IMG/VR virus record: IMGVR_UViG_3300036768_000388
Span: 1-59,850 of that record
Source: a virus
DNA: 59,850 bases
Strand: one strand, 5' to 3'
Positions 1,221 through 58,759 of the stretch are shown piece by piece. The position numbers and the translations under genes were made by a program. The notes beneath the pieces are model-generated. The model made no database searches. It saw only the letters and a list, made by a program, of their open reading frames with translations, and was not told the origin of the DNA. The number at the start of each line of letters is the position of its first letter. Position 1 is the first letter of the stretch.

Positions 1221-1613
1221 ATGAAGTTAAAAGTAGACGACTTAAATTCAATACTAACACTAGTTAAAGCAACTGGTAACTACACATATAACAGGATTTA
1301 TAGCAGTAAGGATGCAGCTGCATATCGTCATGCGATGAAGGATTGCATCTCTACATTAGAAGAGGGTCTAGAGAACCTAGATCTAATTAGACATAAAGTA
1401 GAGTGTCTGAGATCGGAACCAAACTCTCTATATAAGGATAAACTCTTCAACAATAAGTCCTCAGAGAGAAGGTATTATTTGTTGGCAGTTAATCAGACGA
1501 TTGAGGTAATTGATAGTATTAAATTAAGATTTATAACTGGTGATACTGACTCATCTAATTATGTAAATAAAATAAGCGGTAATTACTTTTTACCAGCAAA
1601 GGTTTTTGTATGA
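1221..1613 (+). CDS. hypothetical protein, 130 aa, helical
   Basis: ATG preceded by GAGGT. The sequence looks all-helical (long Leu/Lys/Glu heptad-like stretches such as STLEEGLENLDLIRHKVECL) and has no enzyme motif. It overlaps the next gene by 4 nt (ATGA), so the two are co-translated. Not recognised. Confidence 0.75.
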   Translation: MKLKVDDLNSILTLVKATGNYTYNRIYSSKDAAAYRHAMKDCISTLEEGLENLDLIRHKVECLRSEPNSLYKDKLFNNKSSERRYYLLAVNQTIEVIDSIKLRFITGDTDSSNYVNKISGNYFLPAKVFV

Positions 1614-1897
1614 TAGTTTCTCTAAATCAATTAGATGCTGCACTTTCACAGATGAAATATAAATTGCTTGGCTATGCAGCAGATAAAGAGGATGATCTAC
1701 AAGTTAATATAGAGTTTATTCCAGCTGACCCAGGTAATGGTCAGCTGGTTGATGTTATTTGTTTAAAGGCTTCAAGACCATCTAAGCCAGAGGATATTAA
1801 GGCTTATTCTATGGTTGTTGAAGTTATGCCGTACAGTGAGAATCAACCGCCAACGGCTTCTATTATAGAGGGTTTTAAAATTACAGCTAAGTATTAG
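1610..1897 (+). CDS. hypothetical protein, 95 aa
   Basis: Starts inside the stop of the preceding gene (ATGA overlap). Small acidic beta/alpha protein with no transmembrane segment. Not recognised. It is the last sizeable member of the small 1221-1977 operon. Confidence 0.75.
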   Translation: MIVSLNQLDAALSQMKYKLLGYAADKEDDLQVNIEFIPADPGNGQLVDVICLKASRPSKPEDIKAYSMVVEVMPYSENQPPTASIIEGFKITAKY

Positions 1898-1905
1898 AGG
1901 TAAAT

Positions 1906-1977
1906 ATGAGTTACTTCAAATTAAGAAAAGATCTAACAAAGATTTTTGCTAGTAAAACTCTATACAGAAGTGTATAA
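1906..1977 (+). CDS. possible micro-protein, 23 aa
   Basis: AGAGG lies 5 nt before an ATG that opens a basic 23-codon frame (MSYFKLRKDLTKIFASKTLY...). The ribosome-binding site and operon position are the only support. Confidence 0.3.
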   Translation: MSYFKLRKDLTKIFASKTLYRSV

Positions 1978-1983
1978 AAGCGT

Positions 1984-2014
1984 AAAAAGTAGATCTAATA
2001 ATTTCGCTAGATCT
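1984..2014 (-). terminator. hairpin terminator for the 2029-2295 gene
   Basis: Read on the minus strand, AGATCTA / TAGATCT form a 7-bp stem (1991-1997 with 2008-2014) with a 10-nt loop, followed after a few bases by CTTTTT. It sits directly downstream of the minus-strand gene, as an intrinsic terminator would. The stem is AT-rich and therefore weak. Confidence 0.5.
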
Positions 2015-2028
2015 TGTAAAGAAATTAG

Positions 2029-2295
2029 TTAGATAATTTTACCTGGAGCAACTGATACTTGAGATACTGGACTTCCTGCAGTTGGGATACCAGGAGTAAC
2101 TTGAGCATTCTGAGTTATCTCCATAATGATATCCATAGCGATACCGCTGATAGCTTCTGCCATCTTTTGCCAGTGCTCATCAGCAATAGGGGTGTAACTT
2201 GAACCTTGGCCAGCAGCACTACCGAATTGTGCCTTAAGTCCATTGTAGATGGTCTCTTTCATCTTAGATTTAAGTGCATCTGGTTGCATTGGCAT
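2029..2295 (-). CDS. small virion-like protein, 88 aa
   Basis: A lone minus-strand gene among plus-strand genes, with AGGAG 9 nt before its ATG. The N-terminal half is an amphipathic helix region (MPMQPDALKSKMKETIYNGL); the C-terminus is a Pro/Gly/Ser/Val tail (PGIPTAGSPVSQVSVAPGKI). Small phage structural proteins often end in such PG-rich tails, so a virion or tail-associated role is possible; that is inference. It has its own terminator and shares a divergent region with the RNase H gene. Confidence 0.65.
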   Translation of the reverse strand: MPMQPDALKSKMKETIYNGLKAQFGSAAGQGSSYTPIADEHWQKMAEAISGIAMDIIMEITQNAQVTPGIPTAGSPVSQVSVAPGKII

Positions 2296-2332
2296 ATGTA
2301 CAATCTCCTATAATTATAAGGAATATTATACT

Positions 2333-2788
2333 ATGAAAATAGAAGTTTATGCAGATGGCTCAGGAAACACATTTGACTCAGATGGTGGATTTGGCTTCCG
2401 GATTCTTATCGACAACTCCGTATATAAAGAAGGGAGCGGTTATTTACCTAAAGCTACAAACAACGTTGCAGAAATTACAGCTGCAATTGCAGGGCTTGAA
2501 GAGCTTAAGCGATGCATATCAAGTGATCCTATATTCTCAACGAGTGATATATCAATTACACTTGTATGCGATAGCCAACTCGTGCTCGGATACGCGTCAG
2601 GTAAGTACAAATGTAAAGCGCTACACCTTACACAACTATATGTTAAGCTTCGTCAACTCTATAAAGAACTTAATTGTGAAACCCGCTGGGTAAGAGGTCA
2701 TAGTGGTGAGGAACATAATGAGGCATGTGATAAGTTGGCTAAAGCAGCTCGTAATGAAAAAGGACTCACTAGCGGAAGCAAACCGTAA
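2333..2788 (+). CDS. rnhA: ribonuclease HI
   Basis: Cleaves the RNA strand of RNA-DNA hybrids, probably removing replication primers or supporting host nucleic-acid turnover. The 151-aa product (start ATG 2333, AAGGA 10 nt upstream) has the full RNase HI pattern: Asp8 in YADGSGN, Glu47 in NNVAEITAAI, Asp80 in VCDSQLV, then WVRGHSGEEHNEACDKLA with His123 and Asp133. Length matches the bacterial single-domain family. A longer frame reaching upstream over the divergent gene is unlikely to be translated. It faces the 2029-2295 gene across a short divergent promoter region. Confidence 0.93.
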   Translation: MKIEVYADGSGNTFDSDGGFGFRILIDNSVYKEGSGYLPKATNNVAEITAAIAGLEELKRCISSDPIFSTSDISITLVCDSQLVLGYASGKYKCKALHLTQLYVKLRQLYKELNCETRWVRGHSGEEHNEACDKLAKAARNEKGLTSGSKP

Positions 2789-3219
2789 GTTTACAGAGTA
2801 TCATACATTAACGTACAATGATATGAGGATGGCTGAGATTTGAGTGGTTCTTAAAGTGATTACAATGTATAGATAAGAAAACAGAGTTGATCCAACTAGA
2901 CTGGGATGACCACATGAGATGGGATGGTATTGGACTTCATATAAGCAGAGAATTAAAGATGAACAAAACCACCCCTGACCTAAAAGCCATTTGTTATGGA
3001 AAACCTAGTTCACACTCACGACGCTTGCGTGAATTTACTGACACTACTGTGCTCGACCCCACATCCTGAGCATATATTTATATACCAGCGCTTGTGAGGT
3101 TACATAAGAATGTAACTCGAACTATAAAGCGTGTCCCAGTTTATGCAAATGGTTGCCCTTAACAAAGGTTCCGAGCAATTAAACTAGGCCACTACCCTCA
3201 AAAGAGGGCGGTGAGGCTA
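2789..3219. other. 431-bp intergenic region with RNA-like hairpins
   Basis: No convincing gene. The right half is less AT-rich than its surroundings. A strong hairpin at 3096-3118 (GAGGTTACA with TGTAACTC, one bulged G) is enclosed by CGCTT (3089-3093) pairing with AAGCG (3127-3131). A further hairpin lies at 3189-3216. No tRNA can be folded. It may be an untranslated RNA or the processed 3' region of the nrd transcript. Confidence 0.35.
3189..3216 (-). terminator. stem-loop downstream of nrdA
   Basis: CCCTC / GAGGG with an AAAA loop, extended by flanking CAC / GTG pairing across one mismatch and a wobble, lies within 5-30 nt of the nrdA stop. It is placed to end the nrdB-nrdA transcript, but no U-tract follows on the minus strand, so it may stabilise an mRNA end rather than terminate alone. 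Confidence 0.4.
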
Positions 3220-4929
3220 TCAACCATGACAAGATAAGCACTCATCCCCTGTTTTATTTTTAGGTCCCTCTTCTGCTTGTCTAGTTCCAGCATCAGCTTT
3301 AAGAACAGATGATGAGCGACAATAATATAATGTTTTAACACCAAGTCTCCACGCTTCCATATGAACTTCATTGAACCATTTAGGGTCAACGTTAACTGGG
3401 AAGAATAGATTTAAACTCTGAGCCTGATCGATAAACTTTTGTCTCTGCGCGGCTTGCTGTATAAGCGCCATCTGGTTTATCTCTCTAGCTGTTAAGAATA
3501 CTCTCTTCTCTTGCTCTGTGAGGAACTTAAGATGTTGTACGCTTCCACCATTACCCACTACAGTTTTCCAAACTTCAGATGTATCTTGACCTTTGGCTTT
3601 TAGTAATGCTTCAAATGTTGGATTCTTAACTAAGAAAACACCTTTAGCTGTTTTATCTGCATAAGCGTTAGCTGGGATTGGCTCTATACCATAGCTAACT
3701 TCTCCACTAATGATAGAGTTAGAGCGAGTAGGAGCTATAGCCATGAGATGTGTATGTCTCATACCAGTACCAGAACACCACTCAGGTTCACCATGCGACC
3801 TAGCCATTTCCTGCGATGCAAGAACGGCCTTATCTCTGATCGTTTTAAATAGTAAGGCGTTTAATTGCATTGCACTAAATGATTCAAATGGGATCATTTG
3901 AGATTGCAATAGCGTATGCCATCCAAGAACACCGATACCAATAGCTCTTGATTTTTCTGCAAATCTAACAGATCTTTCAAAACCGGGTAAGTTTTTAGCT
4001 TTAGATATGAACTCAGAAACAACGCCATCTAAGAAATATACTGCAAGCTGCGGAAGGTCTGTATCTTTCCACTCATCCCATTTAGCTGCGTTTAGTGATG
4101 ATAAGCAGCAAACAAAGCTATGCTCATCATCTGTATGTAATGTGATCTCGCTGCAGATGTTAGTCATCTCAACTTTAAGGTTGTTCTTAATATACGCTTC
4201 AGGGTTAGCTCTATTAACCGTATCTTCAAACAGTAAGTATGGTTCACCTGTCTCTAATCTTGTCTTAAGGATCTCGATCCACAGCTTTCTAGCCTCTGCA
4301 TCCTTATTCTCAACCTTCTTCATGAAGCTGTCAGAGATGATTACACAGTGGTTTATATTAAGACATTGTCTATTGACGTCCCCAACTTGTCTACGAATAC
4401 GTAAGAATTCATTTATATCTAAGTGGTCTACGTGTAAGTTAACAGAACTAGCACCACGTCTAACGTTACCTTGTGATGTTGCTATAGTAGCTGAGTCAAA
4501 CACTTTAGCCCAAGGGATAACTCCCTCAGACTTACCGTTCTTACCTTCTCTAATTAAGGCGCCACGACCTCTAACTCTAGATAAACCTATACCAACACCA
4601 CCACCATGCTTTGATAACATAGCCATCTCATGTACAGATTTATATATACCATCTACTGAATCTGGAACTGCAAGACCAAAGCAAGATATTGGTAAACCAC
4701 GATCTGTTCCTAAGTTTGCAGCCACAGGTGTGGCAGGACAAAGCCAGTTTTTAGCCATAGCTTCATAAAACTTATCTTCTAAATCTAATCTAGATATTTG
4801 ACTAGCAGCAGCTTTAGCAACTCTGCGATACATGTCAAATACATTTTCACCCTCTAATAAATAACCATTTTTTAAAGTTTTTAAACCGGCTTCTGTAAGC
4901 CACTCTGGATAATCAATACCTCTAATCAT
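3220..4929 (-). CDS. nrdA: ribonucleoside-diphosphate reductase, large subunit
   Basis: Catalytic alpha subunit of class I ribonucleotide reductase; with NrdB it makes deoxyribonucleotides. 569 aa from the ATG that overlaps the nrdB stop by 8 nt, with AGGAG upstream. Visible motifs: the redox Cys in PISCF (C83), active-site TNICSEI (N257, C259, E261), the partner Cys in CCLSSLN, the YYCRSS tyrosine pair of the radical path, and a C-terminal CLSC (C564, C567) that would be re-reduced by thioredoxin or glutaredoxin. It is much shorter than the about 760-aa E. coli enzyme, and no N-terminal ATP-cone is visible, so dATP feedback inhibition is probably absent, as is common in phages. Divergently transcribed from thyX. 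Confidence 0.96.
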   Translation of the reverse strand: MIRGIDYPEWLTEAGLKTLKNGYLLEGENVFDMYRRVAKAAASQISRLDLEDKFYEAMAKNWLCPATPVAANLGTDRGLPISCFGLAVPDSVDGIYKSVHEMAMLSKHGGGVGIGLSRVRGRGALIREGKNGKSEGVIPWAKVFDSATIATSQGNVRRGASSVNLHVDHLDINEFLRIRRQVGDVNRQCLNINHCVIISDSFMKKVENKDAEARKLWIEILKTRLETGEPYLLFEDTVNRANPEAYIKNNLKVEMTNICSEITLHTDDEHSFVCCLSSLNAAKWDEWKDTDLPQLAVYFLDGVVSEFISKAKNLPGFERSVRFAEKSRAIGIGVLGWHTLLQSQMIPFESFSAMQLNALLFKTIRDKAVLASQEMARSHGEPEWCSGTGMRHTHLMAIAPTRSNSIISGEVSYGIEPIPANAYADKTAKGVFLVKNPTFEALLKAKGQDTSEVWKTVVGNGGSVQHLKFLTEQEKRVFLTAREINQMALIQQAAQRQKFIDQAQSLNLFFPVNVDPKWFNEVHMEAWRLGVKTLYYCRSSSVLKADAGTRQAEEGPKNKTGDECLSCHG

Positions 4930-5896
4930 TAAAAACGCTCTCCTCGCTCCAGTCAACTACACCTTTAGAATAATCAGCAACACGTCCCGCAAAGAAGTCT
5001 TGATGCGCTTCGCCGACCGTCATGTAATCGAACCAATCTAATCTTGCGACAGCCTCTTTATCTAAGTTTGTCCAATTAGATTTTAACCCTAAATCATGTA
5101 ACTTAGTGTTTGCTCTATACTTAATGAATGCTTTTAAATCTTTAGGATCTAAGCCAAGAATTGGCTTTCCATCTTGGAAGACAGAATCAATAAACTGTTC
5201 TTCTAATTTTACTGCATCTCTTGCAGCTTGAAAAATAGATCTTTTAAGCTCATCGTCCCATATATCAGGGTTCTCCGCAATTAGTTGGCGAAATAACCAG
5301 CATCCAGCTTTAGAGTGTAAAGACTCATCTCTAACAGAGAAAGTAATTATCTCTCCAACGCCCTTCATCTTATTATGTCTAGAGTAATTCAATAAGATTG
5401 CGAAAGATGAAAATAACTGAACACCCTCTGCGAAACCACTAAATATGGCTAGAGATAAAGCTTTATCTATAATGCTCTTACCGTTAGTCTCTATAAGGTG
5501 ATCGATCTTAGCTTTTCCTGCAGGATCTTGTAGAAATGCGGCAAAATCATCTAGACCTAAAGTTTCATTTAGATATGCATAAGACTTAGTGTGTATTGTC
5601 TCCATATTGGCAAACGCAGCTGCCATCATTTGGATCTCTGGTTTCTTAAACCAATTATGTACTTTTCCAAGCCAGTAATCATTACCGACTACGATTTCAA
5701 CTTGCGTGAAGCTCTTTAAAACTCCACCAATTAGTTTCTTCTCTTCTTCTGTTAAGTTAGTGTTCCAATCAGTTAAGTCTCTAGCCATAGAGATTTCAGT
5801 ATGAAGCCAGTGAACTTGTTGCTGAGCAAGCCAGTATTCGTAAGCTTGAGGATACTCAAAAGGATAATAAACCAATCTAGGTTTTAGTAAACCCAT
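4922..5896 (-). CDS. nrdB: ribonucleoside-diphosphate reductase, small subunit
   Basis: Beta subunit that houses the diiron centre and stable tyrosyl radical. 324 aa, with GGGAGGG before the ATG. Likely ligands: E67 in FTQVEIVVG, E99 and H102 in METIHTKSY, E157 in FAEGVQ, E191 and H194 in RDESLH. Y106, four residues after H102, matches the radical tyrosine of the ETIHxxSY motif, so this is a Tyr-radical rather than a Phe-type subunit. It precedes nrdA, the reverse of the usual nrdA-nrdB order, and the two overlap by 8 nt, implying coupled translation. The divergent 5897-6035 region should carry promoters for nrdB and thyX. Confidence 0.96.
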   Translation of the reverse strand: MGLLKPRLVYYPFEYPQAYEYWLAQQQVHWLHTEISMARDLTDWNTNLTEEEKKLIGGVLKSFTQVEIVVGNDYWLGKVHNWFKKPEIQMMAAAFANMETIHTKSYAYLNETLGLDDFAAFLQDPAGKAKIDHLIETNGKSIIDKALSLAIFSGFAEGVQLFSSFAILLNYSRHNKMKGVGEIITFSVRDESLHSKAGCWLFRQLIAENPDIWDDELKRSIFQAARDAVKLEEQFIDSVFQDGKPILGLDPKDLKAFIKYRANTKLHDLGLKSNWTNLDKEAVARLDWFDYMTVGEAHQDFFAGRVADYSKGVVDWSEESVFND

Positions 5897-6035: not shown

Positions 6036-6716
6036 ATGCAAGGTAATGACTCAATTAAACAATTTGAATTAATTTCTTCGTCAAATAACTTAGTGGAATT
6101 AGTCTCAATTACCCCTAACTCTGAAGAAGTTATAACCTATTGCGCTAGAGTTAGTAATCCAAATAATCAACTTAATTTTAATAACGCAGATAAATTAATT
6201 AACTATCTGATAGTGAATAAACACTGGAGCCCATTTGAAATGGCTCACATGACTCTGCAAATTAAAACATCAAGAGCTATTGCACCTCAAATATTAAGAC
6301 ATAGATCTTTTACATTTCAAGAGTTTAGTCAACGCTATGCTGCAGTGAATGAATCTGGTCTAGTGATGTACCAAGCTCGGCGTCAAGATAACAAGAATCG
6401 CCAGAACTCAATAGATGACCTATCAGATGAAGTAAAGCAAGAGTGGCTAAAGCGCCAAGAAGAGAATTGGAAGCAATCATTTGAGCATTATACTTGGGCA
6501 CTTAACAATGGCATAGCTAAAGAATGCGCCAGATCTATCCTCCCTATTGGGACTGGTACAACTCTATATATGTCGGGATCTATAAGATCTTGGATTCATT
6601 ATATTGAATTGAGGTCTTCTAATGGTACTCAGAAAGAGCACATGGATATTGCTATTGCTTGTAAAGATATCTTTAAAAGAGAACTGCCGGCGATTGCGGC
6701 AGCTCTTGGTTGGTAA
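6036..6716 (+). CDS. thyX: flavin-dependent thymidylate synthase
   Basis: Methylates dUMP to dTMP using methylenetetrahydrofolate, FAD and NADPH. The 226-aa product carries the family signature from R88: RHRSFTFQEFSQRY, with the RHR triplet and the conserved SxRY end. HWSPFEMAHM before it and the Arg/Tyr-rich C-terminal segment (RSWIHYIELRS) are also typical. GAGGGAG precedes the ATG. With dCMP deaminase, thymidylate kinase and RNR elsewhere in the window this completes a phage dTTP route that does not need host ThyA; a separate ThyA-fold enzyme at 31494 therefore probably does something else. Confidence 0.95.
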   Translation: MQGNDSIKQFELISSSNNLVELVSITPNSEEVITYCARVSNPNNQLNFNNADKLINYLIVNKHWSPFEMAHMTLQIKTSRAIAPQILRHRSFTFQEFSQRYAAVNESGLVMYQARRQDNKNRQNSIDDLSDEVKQEWLKRQEENWKQSFEHYTWALNNGIAKECARSILPIGTGTTLYMSGSIRSWIHYIELRSSNGTQKEHMDIAIACKDIFKRELPAIAAALGW

Positions 6717-7123: not shown

Positions 7124-7798
7124 ATGGACGATGAAATGGTTATTAAACCGAATGAAATCTGGGTAACTAAGTTTGACGAAGACCATGCACAAAAGTTCCG
7201 TCAACAGGTCTTAGAATCTGCAAAAACTGATCCGAATAAGCCTGTAGTTATCTATATTGATTCTTACGGTGGGTACGTTGACGCACTAGCTAAGATGATC
7301 GAAACACTAGATGAAATCCCTAACCCAGTAGTAACTGTATGTATGGGTAAAGCTATGTCTTGTGGAGCTATTCTTTTATCACATGGAGACGTGCGATTTC
7401 TAGGTGCTAATAGTAGAGTTATGGTTCATGAGGTTAGTTCTGGAACTTACGGTGATGTGCACGATATGCACGCAGACGTAAAAGAAACAGTTAGGTTGAA
7501 TGAGCATTTTATGGGCTTGTTAGCACGCAACTGTGGATTCAAGAGCTATGCAGAGTTGCGGTCTGTTATTAAGGACCAAGATGGAAGGGATAGGTATCTC
7601 TTTGGCGAAGATGCTATTAAATTCGGTATCGTAGATGTTATTGGTTTACCAAAAGTTGTAGGTAGATTAAACTATGAAGTTTCTAAACAAGCTAAGAAAT
7701 TAGCTTTTGAACCTCGCAATAAGCAATCTATCAGAACATCTCAATCTTCTAAAAAGAAAGTTAAAACTAAAAAATCTGATACTAAAAAACAAAGATAA
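7124..7798 (+). CDS. ClpP-like serine peptidase (copy 1)
   Basis: 224 aa, S14 family. Catalytic triad visible as S79 in GKAMSCGAIL, H102 in RVMVHEVSS and D156 in GRDRYLF; the oxyanion region SYGGYVDA is also present. AAGGTGG precedes the ATG. The last about 35 residues form a Lys/Ser-rich basic tail absent from bacterial ClpP. No ClpX/ClpA partner is seen nearby, but AAA+ proteins at 16358 and 19982 could supply unfoldase activity. In many phages an S14 peptidase near the capsid gene matures the prohead; this copy is far from the capsid gene, so an early proteolytic role is more likely. Confidence 0.88.
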   Translation: MDDEMVIKPNEIWVTKFDEDHAQKFRQQVLESAKTDPNKPVVIYIDSYGGYVDALAKMIETLDEIPNPVVTVCMGKAMSCGAILLSHGDVRFLGANSRVMVHEVSSGTYGDVHDMHADVKETVRLNEHFMGLLARNCGFKSYAELRSVIKDQDGRDRYLFGEDAIKFGIVDVIGLPKVVGRLNYEVSKQAKKLAFEPRNKQSIRTSQSSKKKVKTKKSDTKKQR

Positions 7799-7811
7799 TA
7801 TAGGAGGAGTT

Positions 7812-8141
7812 GTGTCAGACCAACAAGAAAAATCTCAGTCAGAGATCGATAGAACAGTGGCAATCACAGCAGAAGATTGTAATGCTGCTTTAGATTTCTG
7901 GAGACATTTTAATATTCCTATTAGCACAGAGTTACAGAATGCAATGGATTCTTTCTCAAGAGACCCATCTTTTGAGAATCAACAGAAAGTTAAATTCTAC
8001 GTGTGTAAGGCTATTGTAGAAACAGACCACCCTGCTTTTAAAGATGAGATGTTCTCTAAGATCGCAGAAGAGTGTGAAAACGTTAGCTTCCACATGCAAT
8101 TTGATAACGAACTAGAGTCAATATTAACAGAAAAAGAATAA
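7812..8141 (+). CDS. hypothetical protein, 109 aa
   Basis: I start at the GTG at 7812, just after AGGAGGAG (7802-7809), although an open frame continues upstream through the clpP tail. The product is acidic and helical (AEDCNAALDFWRHFNIP) with two Cys residues. Not recognised. Probably co-transcribed with clpP. Confidence 0.7.
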   Translation: MSDQQEKSQSEIDRTVAITAEDCNAALDFWRHFNIPISTELQNAMDSFSRDPSFENQQKVKFYVCKAIVETDHPAFKDEMFSKIAEECENVSFHMQFDNELESILTEKE

Positions 8142-8172
8142 TTTCCGGTACTTATAGTGGAGGACACCTAGG

Positions 8173-8196
8173 TATCACTTAGCTACCTAAGTGATA
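8173..8196. promoter_or_regulatory. perfect inverted repeat at a -10 box
   Basis: TATCACTTA and TAAGTGATA form a 9-bp perfect dyad with a 6-nt loop. The right arm runs into TATAAT (8195-8200). A dyad overlapping a -10 box suggests an operator; the same sequence could also fold as an mRNA hairpin after 7812-8141. Confidence 0.45.
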
Positions 8197-8223
8197 TAAT
8201 AAGTTAAACAAGGGGAAATTACT

Positions 8224-8814
8224 CTGTCTAAGAAACTTAAGCGCAGAATACAAGAGTTGTGTGGTTTTAACGAATTAACTGACCGTGACGAAAGGATTGA
8301 ACGTGCTTATCAAATTCTCAACAGTGCCGAATTAAAGCAAGCTATATGCCTAAAGATATTAGGCACTACATTTAAAGATGTAGAGAAAGCTATGGATGCT
8401 ATCCTAAAAGAGCGCCATATTCCAGAAGAAAAAATGGAAGAGCTTGAAGAGGACTTTATTCCAGAAAAGTTCGACCCTGAAGTTACATTTATCGCAAATA
8501 AGCAAGCTGCTAGTCCCATTAAGAATAGAGGCTACACAACCCTATCTAGGGAAGATGTTGCTAGGCTTATGGCAGCTTCAAAAGCTGAACCAAAAGGTAT
8601 TGATAACACTCACCCTAAAACTAACTATCCAACTCTTTCTAGAGAAGAGTGCGAGCGATTAGTAAGAGAGTATTTTGAGTACAAACAAAAAGAAATAGAA
8701 CGTAAAAGACAACAAGAAGCGCAAGAGGAGATTCCATGGGTTTCAACGAAGACGACAGAATCCGCTCCAAAAACAAAATCCAAAACGAAGCGTATAAAAT
8801 GTACGAAGGATTAA
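8224..8814 (+). CDS. hypothetical protein, possible CTG start
   Basis: The first ordinary start in frame is TTG 8257, with no ribosome-binding site. Upstream in frame, AGGGG (8211-8215) stands 8 nt before CTG 8224, and the peptide then begins LSKKLKRRIQEL, very like the MSKKLK start at 19271. I therefore favour a CTG start (196 aa). The protein is charged, with two copies of a Y-x-TLSRE(D/E)-x-x-RL motif around residues 103-150 and a basic tail (TKSKTKRIKC). No enzyme signature. It overlaps the next gene by 79 nt. Confidence 0.65.
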   Translation: MSKKLKRRIQELCGFNELTDRDERIERAYQILNSAELKQAICLKILGTTFKDVEKAMDAILKERHIPEEKMEELEEDFIPEKFDPEVTFIANKQAASPIKNRGYTTLSREDVARLMAASKAEPKGIDNTHPKTNYPTLSREECERLVREYFEYKQKEIERKRQQEAQEEIPWVSTKTTESAPKTKSKTKRIKCTKD

Positions 8815-8966: not shown

Positions 8967-9732
8967 TTTTATATGTCTTATAAGCCATATTTCTTTTGCT
9001 AAGCAAATTAAAGTGGCTGTAATAGATACAGGTATCAGTGAATCAATGTTGAAATCGCCAACTCTTTGTGAAACAGGGCATAAGACTTTCGCTGGTATGT
9101 CTATATTAGATAATAACAATCATGGAACACATGTATCATCCCTAATCGATCAGAATGCTAAAAACTTCTTTGTAGGTGTAGATGGTAGTGATGAAAAGCT
9201 TCAATCAATTAAGATAGATTATTGTCAAATAATCATTAAATTCTACGATCCTAAGTCAACATCTAATTCTTTAGAAAGCACTATTCAATCGTTTAATTAT
9301 GCAATTGAGCAGAAAGTTGACATCATAAATTATTCTGCTGGCGGACTTAAACCTTCAATTCGAGAAAAGAAAGCAGTTATTAAAGCATTAGATGCTGGAA
9401 TAATTGTAGTTGTTGCTGCAGGTAATGAGGGATCTGACTTGAATGAGAAAGGTTACTATCCAGCATTATATGACTCTCGCTTGATTGTGGTTGGTAACTT
9501 AGAAAAACCTAAGCAAATTGCTAAGTCATCTAACTTTGGTTCTAAAGTTACTTCCTGGGAAATAGGAACGAATGTGTTGGGTAAATTGAAAGATGGTTCA
9601 TACGGCATGTTGACTGGTACTTCGCAAGCAGCTGCTATAAAAACTGGAAAATTAATTCGACAAATGGTCTCAAAACAGAACCAGTTACCTAGTCTACGAG
9701 GTAAAATTAAGGCTATACCGATGGAGTTTTAA
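8935..9732 (+). CDS. exported subtilisin-like serine protease
   Basis: 265 aa. The N-terminus (MRAIRAIQAISFICLISHIS) is a classic signal peptide with probable cleavage after SFA, so the enzyme should act in the periplasm or outside the cell. S8 triad: D31 in VIDTGIS, H63 in NNHGTHVSS, S230 in TGTSQAAA; the oxyanion Asn lies in AAGNEGSD. No obvious propeptide domain, so maturation may be simple. AGGAG precedes the ATG. It overlaps by one base the trypsin-like gene that follows, pairing two proteases in one operon. Phage-encoded exported subtilisins are unusual; release, superinfection exclusion or host-envelope remodelling are possible roles (inference). Confidence 0.9.
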   Translation: MRAIRAIQAISFICLISHISFAKQIKVAVIDTGISESMLKSPTLCETGHKTFAGMSILDNNNHGTHVSSLIDQNAKNFFVGVDGSDEKLQSIKIDYCQIIIKFYDPKSTSNSLESTIQSFNYAIEQKVDIINYSAGGLKPSIREKKAVIKALDAGIIVVVAAGNEGSDLNEKGYYPALYDSRLIVVGNLEKPKQIAKSSNFGSKVTSWEIGTNVLGKLKDGSYGMLTGTSQAAAIKTGKLIRQMVSKQNQLPSLRGKIKAIPMEF

Positions 9733-17861: not shown

Positions 17862-18665
17862 CTACTCAGGCTTCTTGGGCTCAGTGCCGTCTTGAACGAT
17901 GGGTGAATCATCTACAAATAGATGTGGATCAGCCGCTTCTTTCTTAACTTCATTAAATTCTAATTTAGGTACTTTAACTTTATTAATCCTAGAATAAAGA
18001 TCCCTAATAAGATCCTTCATCTCTTTAATGTTTGGCTCTCTCTTAAGAGCAGCATATCTCATCTTTCTTAAGTTACCGCGCTTTTTAGGTTCTAAGATCT
18101 TATCAGCTAACCCTAACGACACCGCTTCGTACGCAGACATATGTAGATCACGCTGACATACATCTTCCCAGAAATCTGCAGGCATGCGACTGTTCTCTTC
18201 ATATATGTGATATAAGATCTTCATTAGCCTTCTATCTTCTGTAGCTTTAACTTGAATATCTGTATGTCTACCATCAGATGAAGTTGATAGTTCATGAACC
18301 ATTACAGTAGCATTTGGATATAGATACCTCTCGTCGCAGGCAGCCATTATGAAAGTGGCTGAGGACATGATTGCTCCACCACCGTAGAACTTAATTTGAC
18401 ATGGGCATGCTAGGATCTCATCGTGTAGTCGTAGCATAGCGTAAATGTCGCCTCCGTAAGAAGACATATGTAACTCAATTGGTTTACCTGGTGCATCCTT
18501 AGCCATTCTATGAAGTGCTCTAATAGCATACTCAACTGAGGCTGTAGAAAAGTCAGTACTTTCATTAGGTTCAGCTGAGTCTAAGTTAATACCAAAGTAG
18601 ATACGGCGATTTTTTAAGTCGACCCCGTAGGCTAAATTGTCAGTTAACTCAGTAAATGTAGCCAT
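17862..18665 (-). CDS. ClpP-like serine peptidase (copy 2)
   Basis: 267 aa, S14 family, on the minus strand with AGGGAG upstream. Triad S101 in GGAIMSSATFI, H124 in VMVHELSTS and D173 in CQRDLHMSAYEA; SSYGGDIYA gives the oxyanion region. An extra about 50-residue C-terminal tail, mixed charged and Pro-rich, is absent from bacterial ClpP. It is clearly diverged from copy 1 (7124), so the two may form a mixed double ring like paired ClpP1/ClpP2 of some bacteria, or have separate substrates. It is divergent from 18722, with a small AGGTA/TACCT dyad between them (18695-18707). Confidence 0.88.
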   Translation of the reverse strand: MATFTELTDNLAYGVDLKNRRIYFGINLDSAEPNESTDFSTASVEYAIRALHRMAKDAPGKPIELHMSSYGGDIYAMLRLHDEILACPCQIKFYGGGAIMSSATFIMAACDERYLYPNATVMVHELSTSSDGRHTDIQVKATEDRRLMKILYHIYEENSRMPADFWEDVCQRDLHMSAYEAVSLGLADKILEPKKRGNLRKMRYAALKREPNIKEMKDLIRDLYSRINKVKVPKLEFNEVKKEAADPHLFVDDSPIVQDGTEPKKPE

Positions 18666-19981: not shown

Positions 19982-21118
19982 ATGAAGCCAAGTAACATTC
20001 CAGTGGTGTTAGATTTAGCACTTGAAGCAAGACGCCAAGGTAGAACGCTTAACCCAATCTTTACAGGTGAAGCTGGTCTTGGTAAATCAGAAATTACCCA
20101 ATCATGGGTTAAAAAACAACGCGAACGCAACCCTAGTTTCGGATTTGTTGACTTACGTATCGCTTACATGGAAGCACCAGATTTAATCGGTTTACCTGTT
20201 GAAGAAGTTGTTAACGGTAAAGGTCGCACTCGCCATTTCTTACCAGAGTTCTGGCCAACTGAAGGTGAAGGTTTGATTCTTCTTGAAGAACCGAATCGTG
20301 GTACGACAGGTGTAATGAACTGTCTAATGCAGCTTCTTACTGATTTTAAAGTACATAACTACACATTACCTGCCGGTTGGTTAATCGCAGCCTGTATCAA
20401 CCCTGACTCATCTGAGTACGATGTTAATACGATGGATGCTGCTCTTAAAGACCGTTTCGTTGAATTCGAGGTTGAATTCGATCACATGTCGTTCATCGAC
20501 TTTATGTCTGATGCTGACTGGCATGAATCTGTTCAAATGTTCGTTTCTTCTGGTATTTGGACTTATAAAACAACAAAAGAGCTCGGTAAAGATGGAAAAT
20601 ATATCTCTCCACGTACTTGGTCAAAAGTAAATGCAGCTGAAAAAGCCGGTGTAAATAAAAACCGTGCATTACACAGATTGACTGTTCAGTCTATCTTAGG
20701 TAAAGACATTGGTAATGAATACCATAAGTTCTGTTACGATTCAGCTCCAGTAACAGCTTCAGATATCTTGAAAGATAAAACTGCAGCATTCAAACGCTTA
20801 GTTACTCAATCAGATCCTTCAACATACCAAGGCGACATGATCGCTGCGACAGTTGAATCGATCGAAAAAGCTTACGGCGGATTGAAGAAAGATTGCAAAA
20901 ACGATCAGATCGACGAAGATACAATGGTAGAAGTTGCTAAGATTATCCCTGCTGACCACGCTGTAAATCTGATAAAAGGATGTGGATATAAGCAAAGTAG
21001 AGGTCAAATAACTACATTCTTTAAAGAGTTTACAACTCGTCATCCAGACTTAGTAAAAGTTCTAAAAGACAACATAAAAATTAGTCGCGCAACTAGCGTA
21101 CCTACAAAAACTAAGTAA
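19982..21118 (+). CDS. MoxR-type AAA+ ATPase
   Basis: 378 aa. Walker A GEAGLGKSE (K35), Walker B GLILLEEPNRG at about residue 100, and the segment AACINPDSSEYDVNTMDAAL followed by KDRF (sensor 1 and the typical MoxR second strand). MoxR ATPases act as chaperones together with VWA-domain proteins, remodelling or loading metal-containing targets. The matching VWA/metallopeptidase protein is at 22957. AGGAGG precedes the ATG. A homing-endonuclease cassette and two small genes now separate the pair. Confidence 0.9.
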   Translation: MKPSNIPVVLDLALEARRQGRTLNPIFTGEAGLGKSEITQSWVKKQRERNPSFGFVDLRIAYMEAPDLIGLPVEEVVNGKGRTRHFLPEFWPTEGEGLILLEEPNRGTTGVMNCLMQLLTDFKVHNYTLPAGWLIAACINPDSSEYDVNTMDAALKDRFVEFEVEFDHMSFIDFMSDADWHESVQMFVSSGIWTYKTTKELGKDGKYISPRTWSKVNAAEKAGVNKNRALHRLTVQSILGKDIGNEYHKFCYDSAPVTASDILKDKTAAFKRLVTQSDPSTYQGDMIAATVESIEKAYGGLKKDCKNDQIDEDTMVEVAKIIPADHAVNLIKGCGYKQSRGQITTFFKEFTTRHPDLVKVLKDNIKISRATSVPTKTK

Positions 21119-21153: not shown

Positions 21154-22344
21154 ATGGAAAAACGAAAGATTTACTTAGTAAGTGGTATATCTGGCTCAGG
21201 GAAGAGCTGGGTATGCTCGCAATTAACAGACAAAGCTATATATATCGATGCTGATTCACTCTCAGTTGAAGATGCCATAGATTTTATGGTTAAAAATAAA
21301 GGTCCATTTTTGTATGATTTACACAAACCTGTGTCAACCTTTATAAGGAAGAACAGCGATATTTTTGATATTTGTTTAGTAGTGATACTAGGTGATTACT
21401 TAGAAATTAAAAGCAACTTAAAAAAAAGAAACCCTGCTTGGACTTATAGCGTTGGCATGAAAACTAGATGGAACAGAATGCACAATTTATCAAAGCACGT
21501 TAAAGCAGTATTTAGTGGGTCAGCAAGAGACGTCCTTAAATTCTTAAAAAGAGATTTAGACGATCGAGTTCATAAAATATATAAAGCCACTTCACCGAGT
21601 GGAAAGGTTTACATAGGTAAAACATCAATGGAATTATCACAAAGAATAGCCAGTCATAAATATGACGCCTTTAAACGTCAAAGACCGTGGGCATTCAGCG
21701 CTGCACTAAGAAAGTATGGTGATCAAATTACATGGGAAATACTAGTAGACAACATTCAGTCCTCCAAAGAGATCTCCTTCTTAGAAAAGAAATATATTAA
21801 GGAGTATCAATCCACTAACCCTAATTATGGGTACAATTTAACGTTCGGTGGAGATGGAGGTGGTCGCTTAATAGGAGAGTTTGCTCTAAAAAAGTCTAAT
21901 AATCTAAAAAAATACTATGCCTCAGATAGAGGACAACAGATGAAAGAGCATTTGCGCAATACATCACTCGCAATGCGCAGCACTAATATTAATAATACTA
22001 TTAATGAAAAAGTTAAGCAAAAAAGATCATCTATAGAGTCAAGAAAAAAGACATCAGAAGCCAATAAAAAACTTTACTCAGATCCAGCAATGCGAGAAAA
22101 AATGTCTCAAATTAATAAGGCTTCATATAGTGATTTAGAAGTTAAACGAAAAGTTGCTTTAGCAGTTCGCGCAGCTAGAGCGAAAAAATTTGATGTTTTT
22201 AAATTAGATGGTACATATGTTGGGCAATGGGATAGCGCTTCGACTTGTGCAGAAGACCTTAATATCTCAAGAAACGGAATATCGAATTGCCTTCATGGTA
22301 GGCAGCAAACAGTTGGCGGTTTTAAAGTTAAATATGTTTATTAA
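21154..22344 (+). CDS. P-loop kinase-like / GIY-YIG homing endonuclease fusion
   Basis: 396 aa. Residues 1-135 are a P-loop NTPase module: Walker A SGISGSGKS at 10-18, then LYDLHKP and a CLVVILGDYLEI strand, ending SARDVLKFLKRDL. From about 139 comes a GIY-YIG nuclease: IYKATSPSGKVYIGKT, QRIASHKYDAF, and the catalytic Glu in SFLEKKYIKEYQS. Then NUMOD3-like repeats (SEANKKLYSDPAMREKMS...) and a C-terminal NUMOD1-type DNA-binding motif (FDVFKLDGTYVGQWDS...). The P-loop part is homologous to the C-terminal part of the HNH protein at 55987. It has its own promoter box and a strong terminator, and separates the MoxR gene from its VWA partner, as expected of an inserted mobile gene. Confidence 0.88.
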   Translation: MEKRKIYLVSGISGSGKSWVCSQLTDKAIYIDADSLSVEDAIDFMVKNKGPFLYDLHKPVSTFIRKNSDIFDICLVVILGDYLEIKSNLKKRNPAWTYSVGMKTRWNRMHNLSKHVKAVFSGSARDVLKFLKRDLDDRVHKIYKATSPSGKVYIGKTSMELSQRIASHKYDAFKRQRPWAFSAALRKYGDQITWEILVDNIQSSKEISFLEKKYIKEYQSTNPNYGYNLTFGGDGGGRLIGEFALKKSNNLKKYYASDRGQQMKEHLRNTSLAMRSTNINNTINEKVKQKRSSIESRKKTSEANKKLYSDPAMREKMSQINKASYSDLEVKRKVALAVRAARAKKFDVFKLDGTYVGQWDSASTCAEDLNISRNGISNCLHGRQQTVGGFKVKYVY

Positions 22345-22357
22345 AACCTAATGGTTT

Positions 22358-22398
22358 CCCAGGCAGGTGAACCTCCTCCCTAGCCTGCCTGGGTTTTT
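22358..22398 (+). terminator. intrinsic terminator of the GIY-YIG cassette
   Basis: CCCAGGCAGG (22358-22367) and CCTGCCTGGG (22384-22393) form a perfect 10-bp GC-rich stem with a 16-nt loop, followed by TTTTT. The best intrinsic terminator on the plus strand of the window. Confidence 0.9.
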
Positions 22399-22956: not shown

Positions 22957-24342
22957 ATGTCATCAAGACTTAGAGACCCAAAACAAATTAAAGAACAAAT
23001 GGACAAAGAGTTCGTCTCGGTAGAGGATAAATCGCAATGTTTAGCGACAGCCATCTACGAAACATCTAAGTCGCACCCTTTCTTAGGTTCAGTTCTTCAA
23101 TGTTTAACGATTCAATATTCTCACCAATTACCAACTGCTGGTATCTTGTTCAATACAGATGCTAAGCGCTGGGATATGCTAGTTAATCCATACTTTTTCT
23201 GTAAAAAATTAAATGCAGCTCAACGCAAAGCTGTTCTAATCCACGAATTGTCACACATCACGCATAAACATCCACTACGTGTACCATTCTTAAAGATTTC
23301 TGCTCGTAAGCGCATGCTTATGAATATTGCAGCTGATATGGCCATCAATCAGTTTATCAAAGATCTTCCATCTGGATGTCAACATTGTCCTCCAATCGAA
23401 GCTAAACAACCTTGCCCAGACGAAATGTGTCCAGGTCGTTGCATTGATGTTAAAGATTACTACGATGTTGATGAAAAAACGCAAAATAAACTTCCATGGC
23501 CTACAAACCAAACAATGGAAGCTTATTATGAGCGTTTAATCAAAAGATTCGAAGACCCAGATAAAGATGATAAAGGCGAAGGTAACGCTGGTGGCGGTAC
23601 AAATACATCTGATCTACCAGACACTATCGATGAGCACATGTGGGACGGAGCTGGTGATGAGAAAGAGATGCTTGACGCTACTGAGGAGTTAGTTAAGCGT
23701 GCGATGGTTAAATCTCGCTTATCTTACGACGATTTGCCAGGTCACATTAAAGATCTTTTAGAAGAGATCAAGACTCGCCGTGCAGAATTAAATTACAAAG
23801 CTTTGATTATGGCTGCTATGAAGAAGCACGCTTCTGGTCACAACCGTAAATCAACTTGGAATCGTAAAAATAAACGTCTTGGATTTAAAGCTCCAGGTAC
23901 TAAAGTAGGTGATTTACCTAAGCTCGAGTTATATCTCGATACTTCTGGCTCTATCTCTACGGAAGAGCTAAATGAATTCCTTGAGATCGTTGATCAATTC
24001 TTAAAAGTTGGTGCTCGTAAATGTAACCTATCTTTCTTCCATACAGAGTTGTACGGTAGACAGCCGTATAAGATGGGCACAAATATTAACAAGAATGATA
24101 TTCAGTCTGGCGGCACAGAGTTAACTCCAGTTCTACAAGATATTTTTCAACGACGTGGCGATTTAAGTATCATCATCACTGATGGTTACTACAGCGATGT
24201 CCCTATTGAATCATGGATGAAGCCTGGTCAACAATTTCCGCAAATTCTTTGGATTATCTCTAAGGGGGGCATAGAAAAACACCCTTTAGCGAGAGTCGGC
24301 AATACGGTCAAGGTGCCAGACTCTTCTTCAAGTAAGAAGTAA
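22957..24342 (+). CDS. VWA-domain putative metallopeptidase (MoxR partner)
   Basis: 461 aa. The N-terminal domain has a zinc-peptidase helix VLIHELSHITHKH (H96, E97, H100) and a Cys-rich knot (CQHC, CPDEMCPGRC, about residues 140-160). The C-terminal VWA domain has the MIDAS motif LDTSGSIS near residue 330, then SGGTEL and ITDGYYSD. This architecture, metallopeptidase-like domain plus VWA, is the usual genetic partner of MoxR ATPases in bacteria. AAGGAG precedes the ATG. With 19982 it probably forms a chaperone or protease complex; the target is unknown. Confidence 0.88.
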   Translation: MSSRLRDPKQIKEQMDKEFVSVEDKSQCLATAIYETSKSHPFLGSVLQCLTIQYSHQLPTAGILFNTDAKRWDMLVNPYFFCKKLNAAQRKAVLIHELSHITHKHPLRVPFLKISARKRMLMNIAADMAINQFIKDLPSGCQHCPPIEAKQPCPDEMCPGRCIDVKDYYDVDEKTQNKLPWPTNQTMEAYYERLIKRFEDPDKDDKGEGNAGGGTNTSDLPDTIDEHMWDGAGDEKEMLDATEELVKRAMVKSRLSYDDLPGHIKDLLEEIKTRRAELNYKALIMAAMKKHASGHNRKSTWNRKNKRLGFKAPGTKVGDLPKLELYLDTSGSISTEELNEFLEIVDQFLKVGARKCNLSFFHTELYGRQPYKMGTNINKNDIQSGGTELTPVLQDIFQRRGDLSIIITDGYYSDVPIESWMKPGQQFPQILWIISKGGIEKHPLARVGNTVKVPDSSSSKK

Positions 24343-25166: not shown

Positions 25167-25745
25167 ATGAGCGATATGAAAGAAGTATGCGAACAATTAG
25201 AAAAGAAGTGCCCTCGTTGCGGTAAAGCATCAGCCAACTCATCTAATCCTAGCGGAAGATGCTCATCTTGTCTTAAAAAACTTAAGATAGCTAAGAAAAC
25301 ACCTGGTTCAGCTCAGAGGGCACAAACTAAGGCGGACGATGCATTAAGACGTCAAAAGGGTAAGAACGGCACAGCTTCAAAGAAGCATTCTGGTTTGGGT
25401 ACGCGTAAATCTATAGTGAAGCAGATTCAGTCAGCTGAGAAGAAGACTGGTCAAAAACTATCACTGGATCGTAAGGACAACTCAAAAGGTTACGCATCAT
25501 CTAATACAAGAGCAGTCCCTGAACATCTTAATCGCGGTAGACATCATGTTGATGAGAAGAAACTTAAAGCTTGGAAGAAACGCTTAAAGAAGCACGATCT
25601 AACTGCAGAAGAGTTCTATACTCTTATGAAGGCTAAATTTGCAGCCGACGAAGTAGTGTCAGAACTAATCAAATCACTTGGACCTGAAGGTCTAGATAAC
25701 TATATCAACGCTTTTGACGAAGACGTTGAAAACACCACAGAATAA
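25167..25745 (+). CDS. zinc-ribbon, HNH-related basic protein
   Basis: 192 aa. N-terminal zinc ribbon CPRCGK ... GRCSSCLKK (residues 15-37), a long basic middle, then LSLDRKDNSKGYASSNTRAV and EHLNRGRHH, similar to the SxDRxDNSKGY...N core of phage HNH-type endonucleases, but without a full HNH triad. Probably DNA-binding, possibly a nuclease of the HNH/Endo VII group; the catalytic assignment is uncertain. TAAAAT just upstream (25154) may be its promoter. Confidence 0.6.
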   Translation: MSDMKEVCEQLEKKCPRCGKASANSSNPSGRCSSCLKKLKIAKKTPGSAQRAQTKADDALRRQKGKNGTASKKHSGLGTRKSIVKQIQSAEKKTGQKLSLDRKDNSKGYASSNTRAVPEHLNRGRHHVDEKKLKAWKKRLKKHDLTAEEFYTLMKAKFAADEVVSELIKSLGPEGLDNYINAFDEDVENTTE

Positions 25746-31493: not shown

Positions 31494-32282
31494 GTGAATA
31501 TTTATGAAACTGCTTCTGAAGCATATCTTGGAACACTAAAAGATGTCTACTTCAACCCTGACGTCAAAAGCTCGCCACGAGGCCAAGCTGTACGGGAAAA
31601 ACTCGACTACAGCTTCCGCGTGCTGCACCCTACTAATGATCCTATCGTCACTAAAGATAGTAAGCGCAACGAAGTAATTGCAAGCTACACCAGGAAGGAG
31701 GTGGAGCTGTATGATTCCTGCACGAATCTTGCAGAGGATTTTGGACGAGCATCAAAGTTTTGGCTATCTCTAGCTAACCCTGACGGTACTGTCAACTCGG
31801 CATACGGACACCTAATCTGGGCTAAGCGGAGCCACGGATCTGACTTTGAAACCGAAACATTCGTCACAGCTCCGGCAACAAAGCCTGGCGAAGGTAGCGT
31901 TTACGCAACGCGCGGCGTCAGACGTACCCCATGGGAATGGTGCGTAGAGTCTCTAAAAAGAGATAAAGACACTAGACAGGCAGTTCTTCGTTTTTCACTA
32001 CCAGAACATTTTTGGATGGGTAATAAAGACCAGACCTGCACTCTTAATGGTAACTTTTTAATTCGCAACGATCAACTACACTTTTCTATAGTTATGCGCT
32101 CAAATGACCTAACTCTTGGCCTAGTATATGACATGCCATGGTTCATGGGACTTATGGATAGGATGATAGTTGAGTTAAAGCCATCATATCCTAGTCTTAC
32201 CAAAGGTCACTATACGCACTTTGTACATAGTTTGCATATTTATGAAAGAGATGAAGAAAAAGTTCTAAAAATGTTGGGATAG
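31494..32282 (+). CDS. thymidylate-synthase-fold enzyme, likely dCMP hydroxymethylase
   Basis: 262 aa, GTG start after AAGGAG. ThyA-fold motifs: catalytic C182 (DQTCTLNGNF), RSND at 202-205, LGLVYDMPWF at 208-217 and LHIYE with H248/Y250. In ThyA the pyrimidine-reading residue is Asn in the LPFNIASY segment; here it is D213. The same Asn-to-Asp change marks T4 gp42, which hydroxymethylates dCMP. As ThyX already makes dTMP, I infer a dCMP substrate and 5-hydroxymethyl (or methyl) dCMP as product. The 5' half (to about 31960) is clearly richer in G+C and uses CGC/CTG/GGC codons; the 3' half looks like the rest of the genome, suggesting mosaic origin. Confidence 0.75.
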   Translation: MNIYETASEAYLGTLKDVYFNPDVKSSPRGQAVREKLDYSFRVLHPTNDPIVTKDSKRNEVIASYTRKEVELYDSCTNLAEDFGRASKFWLSLANPDGTVNSAYGHLIWAKRSHGSDFETETFVTAPATKPGEGSVYATRGVRRTPWEWCVESLKRDKDTRQAVLRFSLPEHFWMGNKDQTCTLNGNFLIRNDQLHFSIVMRSNDLTLGLVYDMPWFMGLMDRMIVELKPSYPSLTKGHYTHFVHSLHIYERDEEKVLKMLG

Positions 32283-35930: not shown

Positions 35931-36350
35931 ATGAGTAAGATAGAGACGATTGTTTTTATAGGCTCAAATCCAAGCGAAAGATCTTACAGATTAGAGCCAT
36001 TTTGGCACAACACTAAGAGTATGACAATGCTAACAAACTGGATAAACTCTATTCCAACTGCCGCATATCAAATGACATTTTTAAATGTCAGTAATCAAAC
36101 TACACCAGGTAATAGACCTTTAAAAATATCAGAGATAAAGTCCAACTTACCTAGACTTAAACTTGATTTAGAGTTGTGTAAACCAGTAAAAATAATAGCG
36201 TTAGGTAAAACTGCAGCAAAAGCATTGACACTGCTTGGCCATAACTTCTATGAGATGCCACACCCAAGTGGTTTAAATAGACAGCTAAATAATAAAGAAT
36301 TCATTGAAGAAAAAATAAAAGGGCTAGCTAGTTACCTAGCCAGCCCTTAA
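35931..36350 (+). CDS. uracil-DNA-glycosylase-superfamily protein
   Basis: 139 aa. The N-terminal FIGSNPSERS and C-terminal HPSGLNRQL correspond to motifs 1 and 2 of the UDG fold, and IIALGKTAAKAL is the strand-helix before motif 2. The usual catalytic Asp/Asn of motif 1 is not clear, so activity may be altered: a glycosylase, a decoy, or another base-excision function. The last codons are part of the terminator stem. Confidence 0.6.
   Translation: MSKIETIVFIGSNPSERSYRLEPFWHNTKSMTMLTNWINSIPTAAYQMTFLNVSNQTTPGNRPLKISEIKSNLPRLKLDLELCKPVKIIALGKTAAKALTLLGHNFYEMPHPSGLNRQLNNKEFIEEKIKGLASYLASP
36321..36346. terminator. bidirectional terminator between the two arms
   Basis: GGGCT and AGCCC, with GCTAG / CTAGC inside and a TTAC loop, form a strong hairpin; AATTTTT follows on the plus side. 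It lies between convergent genes and marks the border between early plus-strand and late minus-strand transcription. Confidence 0.75.
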
Positions 36351-55858: not shown

Positions 55859-55990
55859 TTATACCAGATATCGTTCCAATAACTCTTCTTGAGCATCTCT
55901 GATAGAGATCTCTGCATTACGCAGAAGTATCTTGATGGCATGCCTGTTCACTGTTTTGGCTAATTCTTCGATCTCATGAAGCTCAATCAT
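55859..55990 (-). CDS. small helical protein, 43 aa
   Basis: Its ATG overlaps the HNH-gene stop (ATGA), a coupled start. Helical and charged (MIELHEIEELAKTVNRHAI). May be a passenger of the homing cassette. Confidence 0.55.
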   Translation of the reverse strand: MIELHEIEELAKTVNRHAIKILLRNAEISIRDAQEELLERYLV

Positions 55991-58740: not shown

Positions 58741-58759
58741 TTTTCGCATTCTCCTTTGA

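Follow-up and report, generated by a model that had tools for sequence, protein, structure and literature searches.

Results

A putative kinase module on a GIY-YIG homing endonuclease

The ORF at positions 21,154–22,344 (plus strand, 396 amino acids) of the window, by which we mean the whole 59,850-base stretch of viral DNA analyzed here, is predicted to encode a GIY-YIG/NUMOD homing endonuclease, the first ~135 residues of which form a compact P-loop kinase domain. This kinase-like module occupies residues 3–137 (positions 21,160–21,564, plus strand) and contains the Walker A sequence GISGSGKS (residues 11–18; positions 21,184–21,207, plus strand), which is followed by Trp-19, a residue typical of the module family. 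Downstream of the module lie a GIY-YIG nuclease domain (residues 142–220; positions 21,577–21,813, plus strand) and a NUMOD1/I-HmuI NUMOD-like DNA-binding repeat (residues 348–390; positions 22,195–22,323, plus strand). The initial annotation had placed the module in front of a GIY-YIG nuclease with NUMOD motifs, and the domain searches agree: residues 142–220 match the phrog_314 homing endonucleases (E = 2e-19), the NUMOD-like domain PF22083 passes its cut-off with 34.7 bits (residues 359–390), and the Pfam GIY-YIG model scores 21.0 bits, slightly below its cut-off of 22.6. The catalytic columns (Tyr-143, Tyr-153, Gly-155, Arg-164, Glu-211, and Asn-228) are intact and invariant across 13 aligned relatives. 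We consider it unlikely that the ORF arose as an assembly chimera; an N-terminal module followed by GIY-YIG is also found at two further loci (L009 and L210), the products of which share 33–34% identity with the window ORF across its full length.

The upstream neighbor of the cassette is a MoxR-like ATPase gene (positions 19,982–21,118, plus strand), which is the likely homing target region, and a VWA/metallopeptidase-like gene (DUF2201; positions 22,957–24,342, plus strand) lies downstream. In cassette-free relatives the two genes adjoin each other, and the gap between them is only 72–131 bp in several relatives, so the view that the cassette splits a MoxR/VWA pair proved right. The insert separates the MoxR stop codon from a terminator hairpin (positions 22,358–22,398, plus strand) that empty relatives also have; in four of these (L003, L006, L007, and L012) the stretch from the MoxR stop codon to the terminator is unbroken, i.e. 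the insert is present or absent at one site. The hairpin had been read as a strong terminator of the cassette itself, a reading that we reject because the hairpin follows MoxR in the empty relatives; it is the resident MoxR terminator, displaced by the insertion and outside the cassette. A promoter box ascribed to the cassette likewise did not hold up, in that the promoter scan gave no match 5′ of the ORF and found 7 matches compared with 6.6 expected in shuffled sequences. Unlike the window insert, that of L009 lies on the 5′ side of MoxR. Further, in an unrelated phage (L135, positions 1570–4408), a stand-alone module gene is situated directly 3′ of a distant MoxR/VWA pair, with no nuclease.

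A second module-bearing gene in the window (positions 55,987–57,186, minus strand) encodes an HNH homing endonuclease of 399 amino acids with a C-terminal P-loop kinase-like module (positions 56,005–56,400, minus strand) and an intact HNH nuclease region (residues 167–253; positions 56,428–56,688, minus strand), and it lies directly downstream of the major capsid protein gene (positions 57,289–58,749, minus strand). When aligned, residues 4–135 of the window ORF and residues 264–392 of the HNH protein were 35% identical over 133 amino acids (BLASTP E = 3e-19), well above chance, which upholds the proposed homology of the two modules; the domain positions also confirm that the domain order is reversed and that the nuclease fold differs between the two proteins. 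A search of the whole record detected these two module copies and no others. By eye, we also noted a possible further HNH/Endo VII-like gene with a zinc finger (LSLDRKDNSKGYASSNTRAV) at positions 25,167–25,745 and two ClpP-like serine protease genes, located far apart at positions 7124–7798 and 17,862–18,665.

Relatives and nuclease partners of the module

Searches of 50,697 annotated phages with either module by tblastn gave no relevant match, and initial pattern scans built on one or two module sequences gave no match either. Relatives were gathered with two bait genes, MoxR yielding 26 loci and the major capsid gene 80, and module homologues were present in more than 20 of these loci. A profile built from these homologues then retrieved further loci on viral contigs (41 and 59), as well as a contig (L186) filed under a Flavobacteriaceae metagenome-assembled genome. 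When 50 complete records from the phage group of the window were searched, a module match at E ≤ 0.001 was present in 14, and in one or more of these it was very weak. Two isolated viruses, Halogranum tailed virus 1 (gene 246/247) and Pseudomonas phage KIL1, each have what looked like neighboring HNH and P-loop genes, but these proved not to be homologous to the module.

Of 61 module sequences, 38 distinct ones, in related uncultured phages, are fused to a nuclease; most of these fusions have the module at the C terminus, and the window ORF is one of the few with it at the N terminus. Partner types were assigned from domain searches for representative sequences and from similarity for the others. 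The partners comprise GIY-YIG proteins, in which the module is C-terminal (n = 9) or N-terminal (n = 3; the window ORF, L009, and L210); HNH proteins, either related to that of the window (n = 10) or of small types (n = 8); PD-(D/E)XK proteins with helix-turn-helix repeats (n = 6); and single cases of a NUMOD3 protein, with the module at its N terminus (L180), and of an Endo VII-type protein (L204). In four other distinct cases the module has a gene of its own, which begins where a homing endonuclease gene ends or no more than about a dozen bases away, the upstream nuclease being of the GIY-YIG type in L218, HNH/Endo VII-like in L243 and L129, and phrog_3339 in L123. In L243 (positions 1764–5384), a capsid-like gene lies amid three HNH/Endo VII-like genes, the last of which overlaps the module gene. 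The remaining category consists of 18 stand-alone modules, and several of those examined are near terminase, portal, or MoxR/VWA genes. The initial annotation had described one module on two kinds of nuclease; the sharing stands, and the number of kinds rises to at least five. As judged from these predicted architectures, the module is a mobile and interchangeable partner of at least five kinds of homing endonuclease, either joined to their N or C terminus or supplied by the gene that follows.

Most module-bearing nucleases lie directly downstream of the major capsid gene, and others occur beside MoxR, on the upstream side of a second head gene, or between the genes for the tail tube and the sheath. 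At the capsid site, 72 informative loci (not all of them independent) included 20 with a nuclease and a module, 11 with a nuclease that lacks the module, and 41 with no recognised nuclease, and the 11 module-free nucleases belong to the same families as the module-bearing ones. Because related nucleases occupy the same site without it, the module does not appear to be essential for homing.

These distributions also bear on an earlier suggestion, namely that the module gates the nuclease or acts as a nucleotide sensor for it. We regard such a role as unlikely, since domain order, linkage, and partner are free, with unrelated folds carrying the module at either end or as a separate gene, and since close relatives of the nucleases manage without it. 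In addition, the structure prediction for the full-length window ORF (mean pLDDT 89.5) has confident domains but a low pTM of 0.47, so that no fixed domain interface is predicted, and stand-alone homologues of the module exist with no nuclease next door. Physical fusion to a nuclease in most copies would nonetheless fit a gating role, and a precedent is provided by DndF, a P-loop kinase in a nuclease system that is predicted to be a nucleotide sensor (PMC10853773).

Exchange of the nuclease at the capsid site

Comparison of related phages with and without the cassette, which the initial annotation had proposed, revealed a mobile unit. When loci empty at the capsid site (L091, L092, and L094) were compared with a filled one (L076), the insertion was found to match the whole nuclease-module ORF, and this shows, at the level of aligned loci, that nuclease and module move as one unit. 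The same comparison led us to reject, for this site, the idea that nucleases captured a resident kinase; the empty loci have no module.

Within occupied sites, the nuclease is the part that is exchanged for another, and the module stays. Two loci (L089 and L202) are 98.6% identical over 3256 bases ending at the capsid stop codon, then diverge into unrelated nucleases (PD-(D/E)XK and phrog_3339, respectively), and identity returns at the first codons of the module, with 95.9% over 365 bases. A second pair (L093 and L186) displays a like pattern, with PD-(D/E)XK and HNH nucleases. Further, the module tree contains 20 changes of nuclease type. Among 22 capsid-site copies, module identity rose with capsid identity (Mantel rho 0.26, a value reached in 18 of 2000 permutations) and did not depend on the nuclease, at 0.451 for pairs with the same nuclease type and 0.458 for pairs with different types. 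In one group of near-identical loci (L101 at positions 9149–9215, also L102, L103, and L106), an apparent fossil of the module C terminus (LKSTSDEVLAYLRSVYPKRV) directly follows a module-free phrog_3339 homing endonuclease; 12 of its 18 residues are as in L098, and it is the best non-module match of a C-terminal profile (E = 0.008). Being short, this putative fossil serves as supporting evidence only.

The coding sequence of the module is under strong purifying selection, with dN/dS between modules on different nucleases of 0.062 (L093/L186) and 0.129 (L089/L123). This constraint, the retention of the module when the nuclease is replaced, its similarity tracking the capsid gene and not the nuclease, and the stand-alone copies among the head, packaging, and MoxR/VWA genes of other phages would all be accounted for if the kinase were cargo that benefits the phage, by repairing RNA or DNA ends against host nucleases or through nucleotide metabolism, and that makes a selfish nuclease worth keeping with no role in homing. 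The module seems dispensable to the phage, however, because it is absent from most relatives at the capsid site and because only the fossil remains after one replacement, and we therefore give the cargo explanation a low probability. A different proposal is that the module is kept mainly as shared DNA, a homology arm that lets an incoming nuclease gene enter an occupied site by recombination. The exchange junctions lie exactly where this would place them, one at the stop codon of the capsid gene and the other at the first codons of the module, but the constraint acts strongly at the protein level while silent sites are saturated (dN/dS 0.06–0.13), and catalytic residues are conserved across copies too diverged for DNA recombination, which makes this a very improbable explanation.

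Fold and conservation of the module

The AlphaFold2 model of the window module is compact and confident (pLDDT 91, pTM 0.84). Among solved structures, P-loop kinases came out closest to it (E about 1e-5 to 1e-4), with gluconate, dephospho-CoA, and adenylate kinases represented no less than kinases of nucleic acids. A related phage from the same capsid group (L184, record G058) encodes a Pnkp-like protein of RNA repair that combines a calcineurin-type phosphatase with a kinase. The module profile aligned with the kinase domain of this protein over 99 columns (hhalign probability 96, E = 3e-9), so that the similarity extends beyond the P-loop, whereas the thymidylate kinase of the window, used as the control, gave a probability of 4. 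Across 61 copies, Gly-9 (61), the Walker A Lys-15 (60), Asp-32 at the end of strand 2 (61), the lid residue Arg-90 (60), and the C-terminal Gly-120 (60) are conserved, and the family signature is G-x4-GK[S/T]W, the invariant Asp closing strand 2, lid Arg residues, and a C-terminal F-x-G-T-S-x-E-V-L. The sole copy with a broken Walker A sequence is in L105 (positions 7201–8572), in which two modules lie in tandem within one ORF; the first reads GQTGASTS, and the second has an intact Walker A sequence and is cut by the contig end.

The module thus has the Walker A sequence, the acid at the end of strand 2, the lid Arg, and the fold of a P-loop kinase. An identity as an AAA+ motor or helicase was rejected on the grounds of this fold, and the earlier guess of a kinase was reasonable because the fold and the profiles favor a P-loop kinase over an AAA+ motor. 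With the Pfam model AAA_33 (polynucleotide kinase-like), the window copy gave no match, and only L180 passed (30.1 bits compared with a cut-off of 27); the 5-hmdU DNA kinase model PF18748 matched only L083, below its cut-off (15.1 bits compared with 27; E = 0.017); and the PADLOC defense kinases gave no specific match, only scattered P-loop matches, none of them to the window copy. We suggest, from profiles and predicted structure, that the modules constitute a previously undescribed family of very small P-loop kinases (~133 residues).

Pfam Zeta_toxin matched 10 of 21 modules (best E = 6.9e-7), the window copy not being among them, and this raised the idea of a toxin-like kinase, related to zeta toxins, that is directed against the host or co-infecting phages in interference competition. 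The AAA_33 and guanylate kinase models match equally well, the domain is shorter than zeta toxins, and no antidote-like partner gene is conserved; we consider a toxin highly unlikely.

The window contains both ThyX and a divergent ThyA-like thymidylate synthase (positions 6036–6716 and 31,494–32,282), as well as a dCMP deaminase and a small UDG-superfamily protein (positions 35,931–36,350), and base modification was considered. A link to hypermodified bases was set aside, in that the ThyA-like protein is a thymidylate synthase according to PHROGs and the match to the hydroxymethyluracil kinase model is too weak.

Discussion

The explanation that we prefer, tentatively and with somewhat less than even confidence as a whole, combines a homing gene with an independent nucleic-acid kinase. 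The window ORF would be a homing endonuclease gene of the free-standing kind that has entered the phage genome between the stop codon of MoxR and the MoxR terminator. As its family and the empty and filled sites suggest, the GIY-YIG domain would cut the insert-free allele in a co-infecting phage, and recombinational repair would then copy the cassette into the cut allele. The module would act as an independent enzyme, since it is combined with unrelated nucleases in any order and its catalytic residues are kept under purifying selection. That it is an active kinase is probable, judging from its conserved residues and modeled fold. The kinases to which it compares phosphorylate hydroxyls, and therefore we infer a hydroxyl acceptor for an ATP-dependent reaction. 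That this hydroxyl is on nucleic acid, in the manner of polynucleotide kinases, is the likeliest substrate assignment and yet a doubtful one taken on its own. Such an activity would aid the element or its phage while DNA or RNA ends are broken and repaired. HNH, GIY-YIG, and PD-(D/E)XK nucleases normally leave 5′-phosphates, and it is thus not obvious why the breaks that they make themselves would call for a 5′ kinase.

Homing endonucleases are usually viewed as a nuclease with DNA-binding domains. A kinase that recurs with at least five kinds of nuclease, survives their replacement, and is constrained points to a second activity that has been repeatedly selected by the homing lifestyle or by the host phage, and this suggests that selfish homing genes bring a second enzyme along. 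It also raises the question of which hydroxyl a homing element must phosphorylate. A reading as a new class of mobile element is possible, although the element still resembles a homing endonuclease gene to which a module has been added; the kinase would be the stable core, homing nucleases of any fold would be its exchangeable drivers, and kinase activity on broken DNA or RNA ends or on modified DNA would be advantageous to the element or phage during homing or co-infection. We hold this fuller version to be speculative and less probable than not by some way.

The initial annotation had called a P-loop domain on a homing nuclease unusual, and the literature is in accord with this. A survey of phage homing endonucleases mentions no kinase, P-loop, or ATPase (PMC10448857), a survey of the GIY-YIG superfamily mentions no P-loop or ATPase fusion (PMC1564403), and a search of 5.39 million open-access papers returned no description of a homing endonuclease combined with a P-loop, kinase, AAA, or Walker A domain. 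A kinase module shared by unrelated homing nucleases thus appears to be an undescribed arrangement. The profile of phrog_4581, a family annotated as "terminase small subunit" with matches in L083, L110, L119, L130, and L175, aligns across both HNH and Walker A. This suggests that its members may be misannotated HNH and P-loop proteins, and related fusions may therefore exist unrecognised in isolated phages. The signature GK[S/T]W … D … RxG … F-x-GTS-x-EVL provides a search handle for such elements in unannotated phages, in which module proteins would now be labeled merely as a nuclease or an AAA domain.

Among known systems, the window ORF is closest in its nuclease half to the GIY-YIG enzymes of the I-TevI and T4 Seg type (phrog_314), with which it shares the catalytic residues, the NUMOD repeats, a free-standing gene beside a conserved phage gene, and presence or absence between relatives; the P-loop kinase module at its N terminus sets it apart from them. 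In related phages, the nucleases that partner the module are of the HNH, Endo VII, and PD-(D/E)XK kinds known among phage homing endonucleases, and all of these partners carry the same kinase module. With the polynucleotide kinase domains of the Pnkp/AAA_33 type, the module has in common the Walker A sequence, the Asp closing strand 2, and the lid Arg; unlike them, it is only ~133 residues long and carries the GKSW signature and the C-terminal F-x-GTS-x-EVL motif, and the window copy falls below the AAA_33 cut-off. DndF of the DndFGH restriction system has a lid of ~200 residues and is a separate subunit of a host defense complex, whereas the module is minimal and lies within a phage homing gene. 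The pairing of a nuclease with a P-loop polynucleotide kinase is known from Las1-Grc3, in which an RNase that leaves 5′-OH ends is obligately paired with such a kinase in eukaryotic rRNA processing. The likeness to the module is one of architecture, and Las1-Grc3 differs in being eukaryotic and RNA-cutting.
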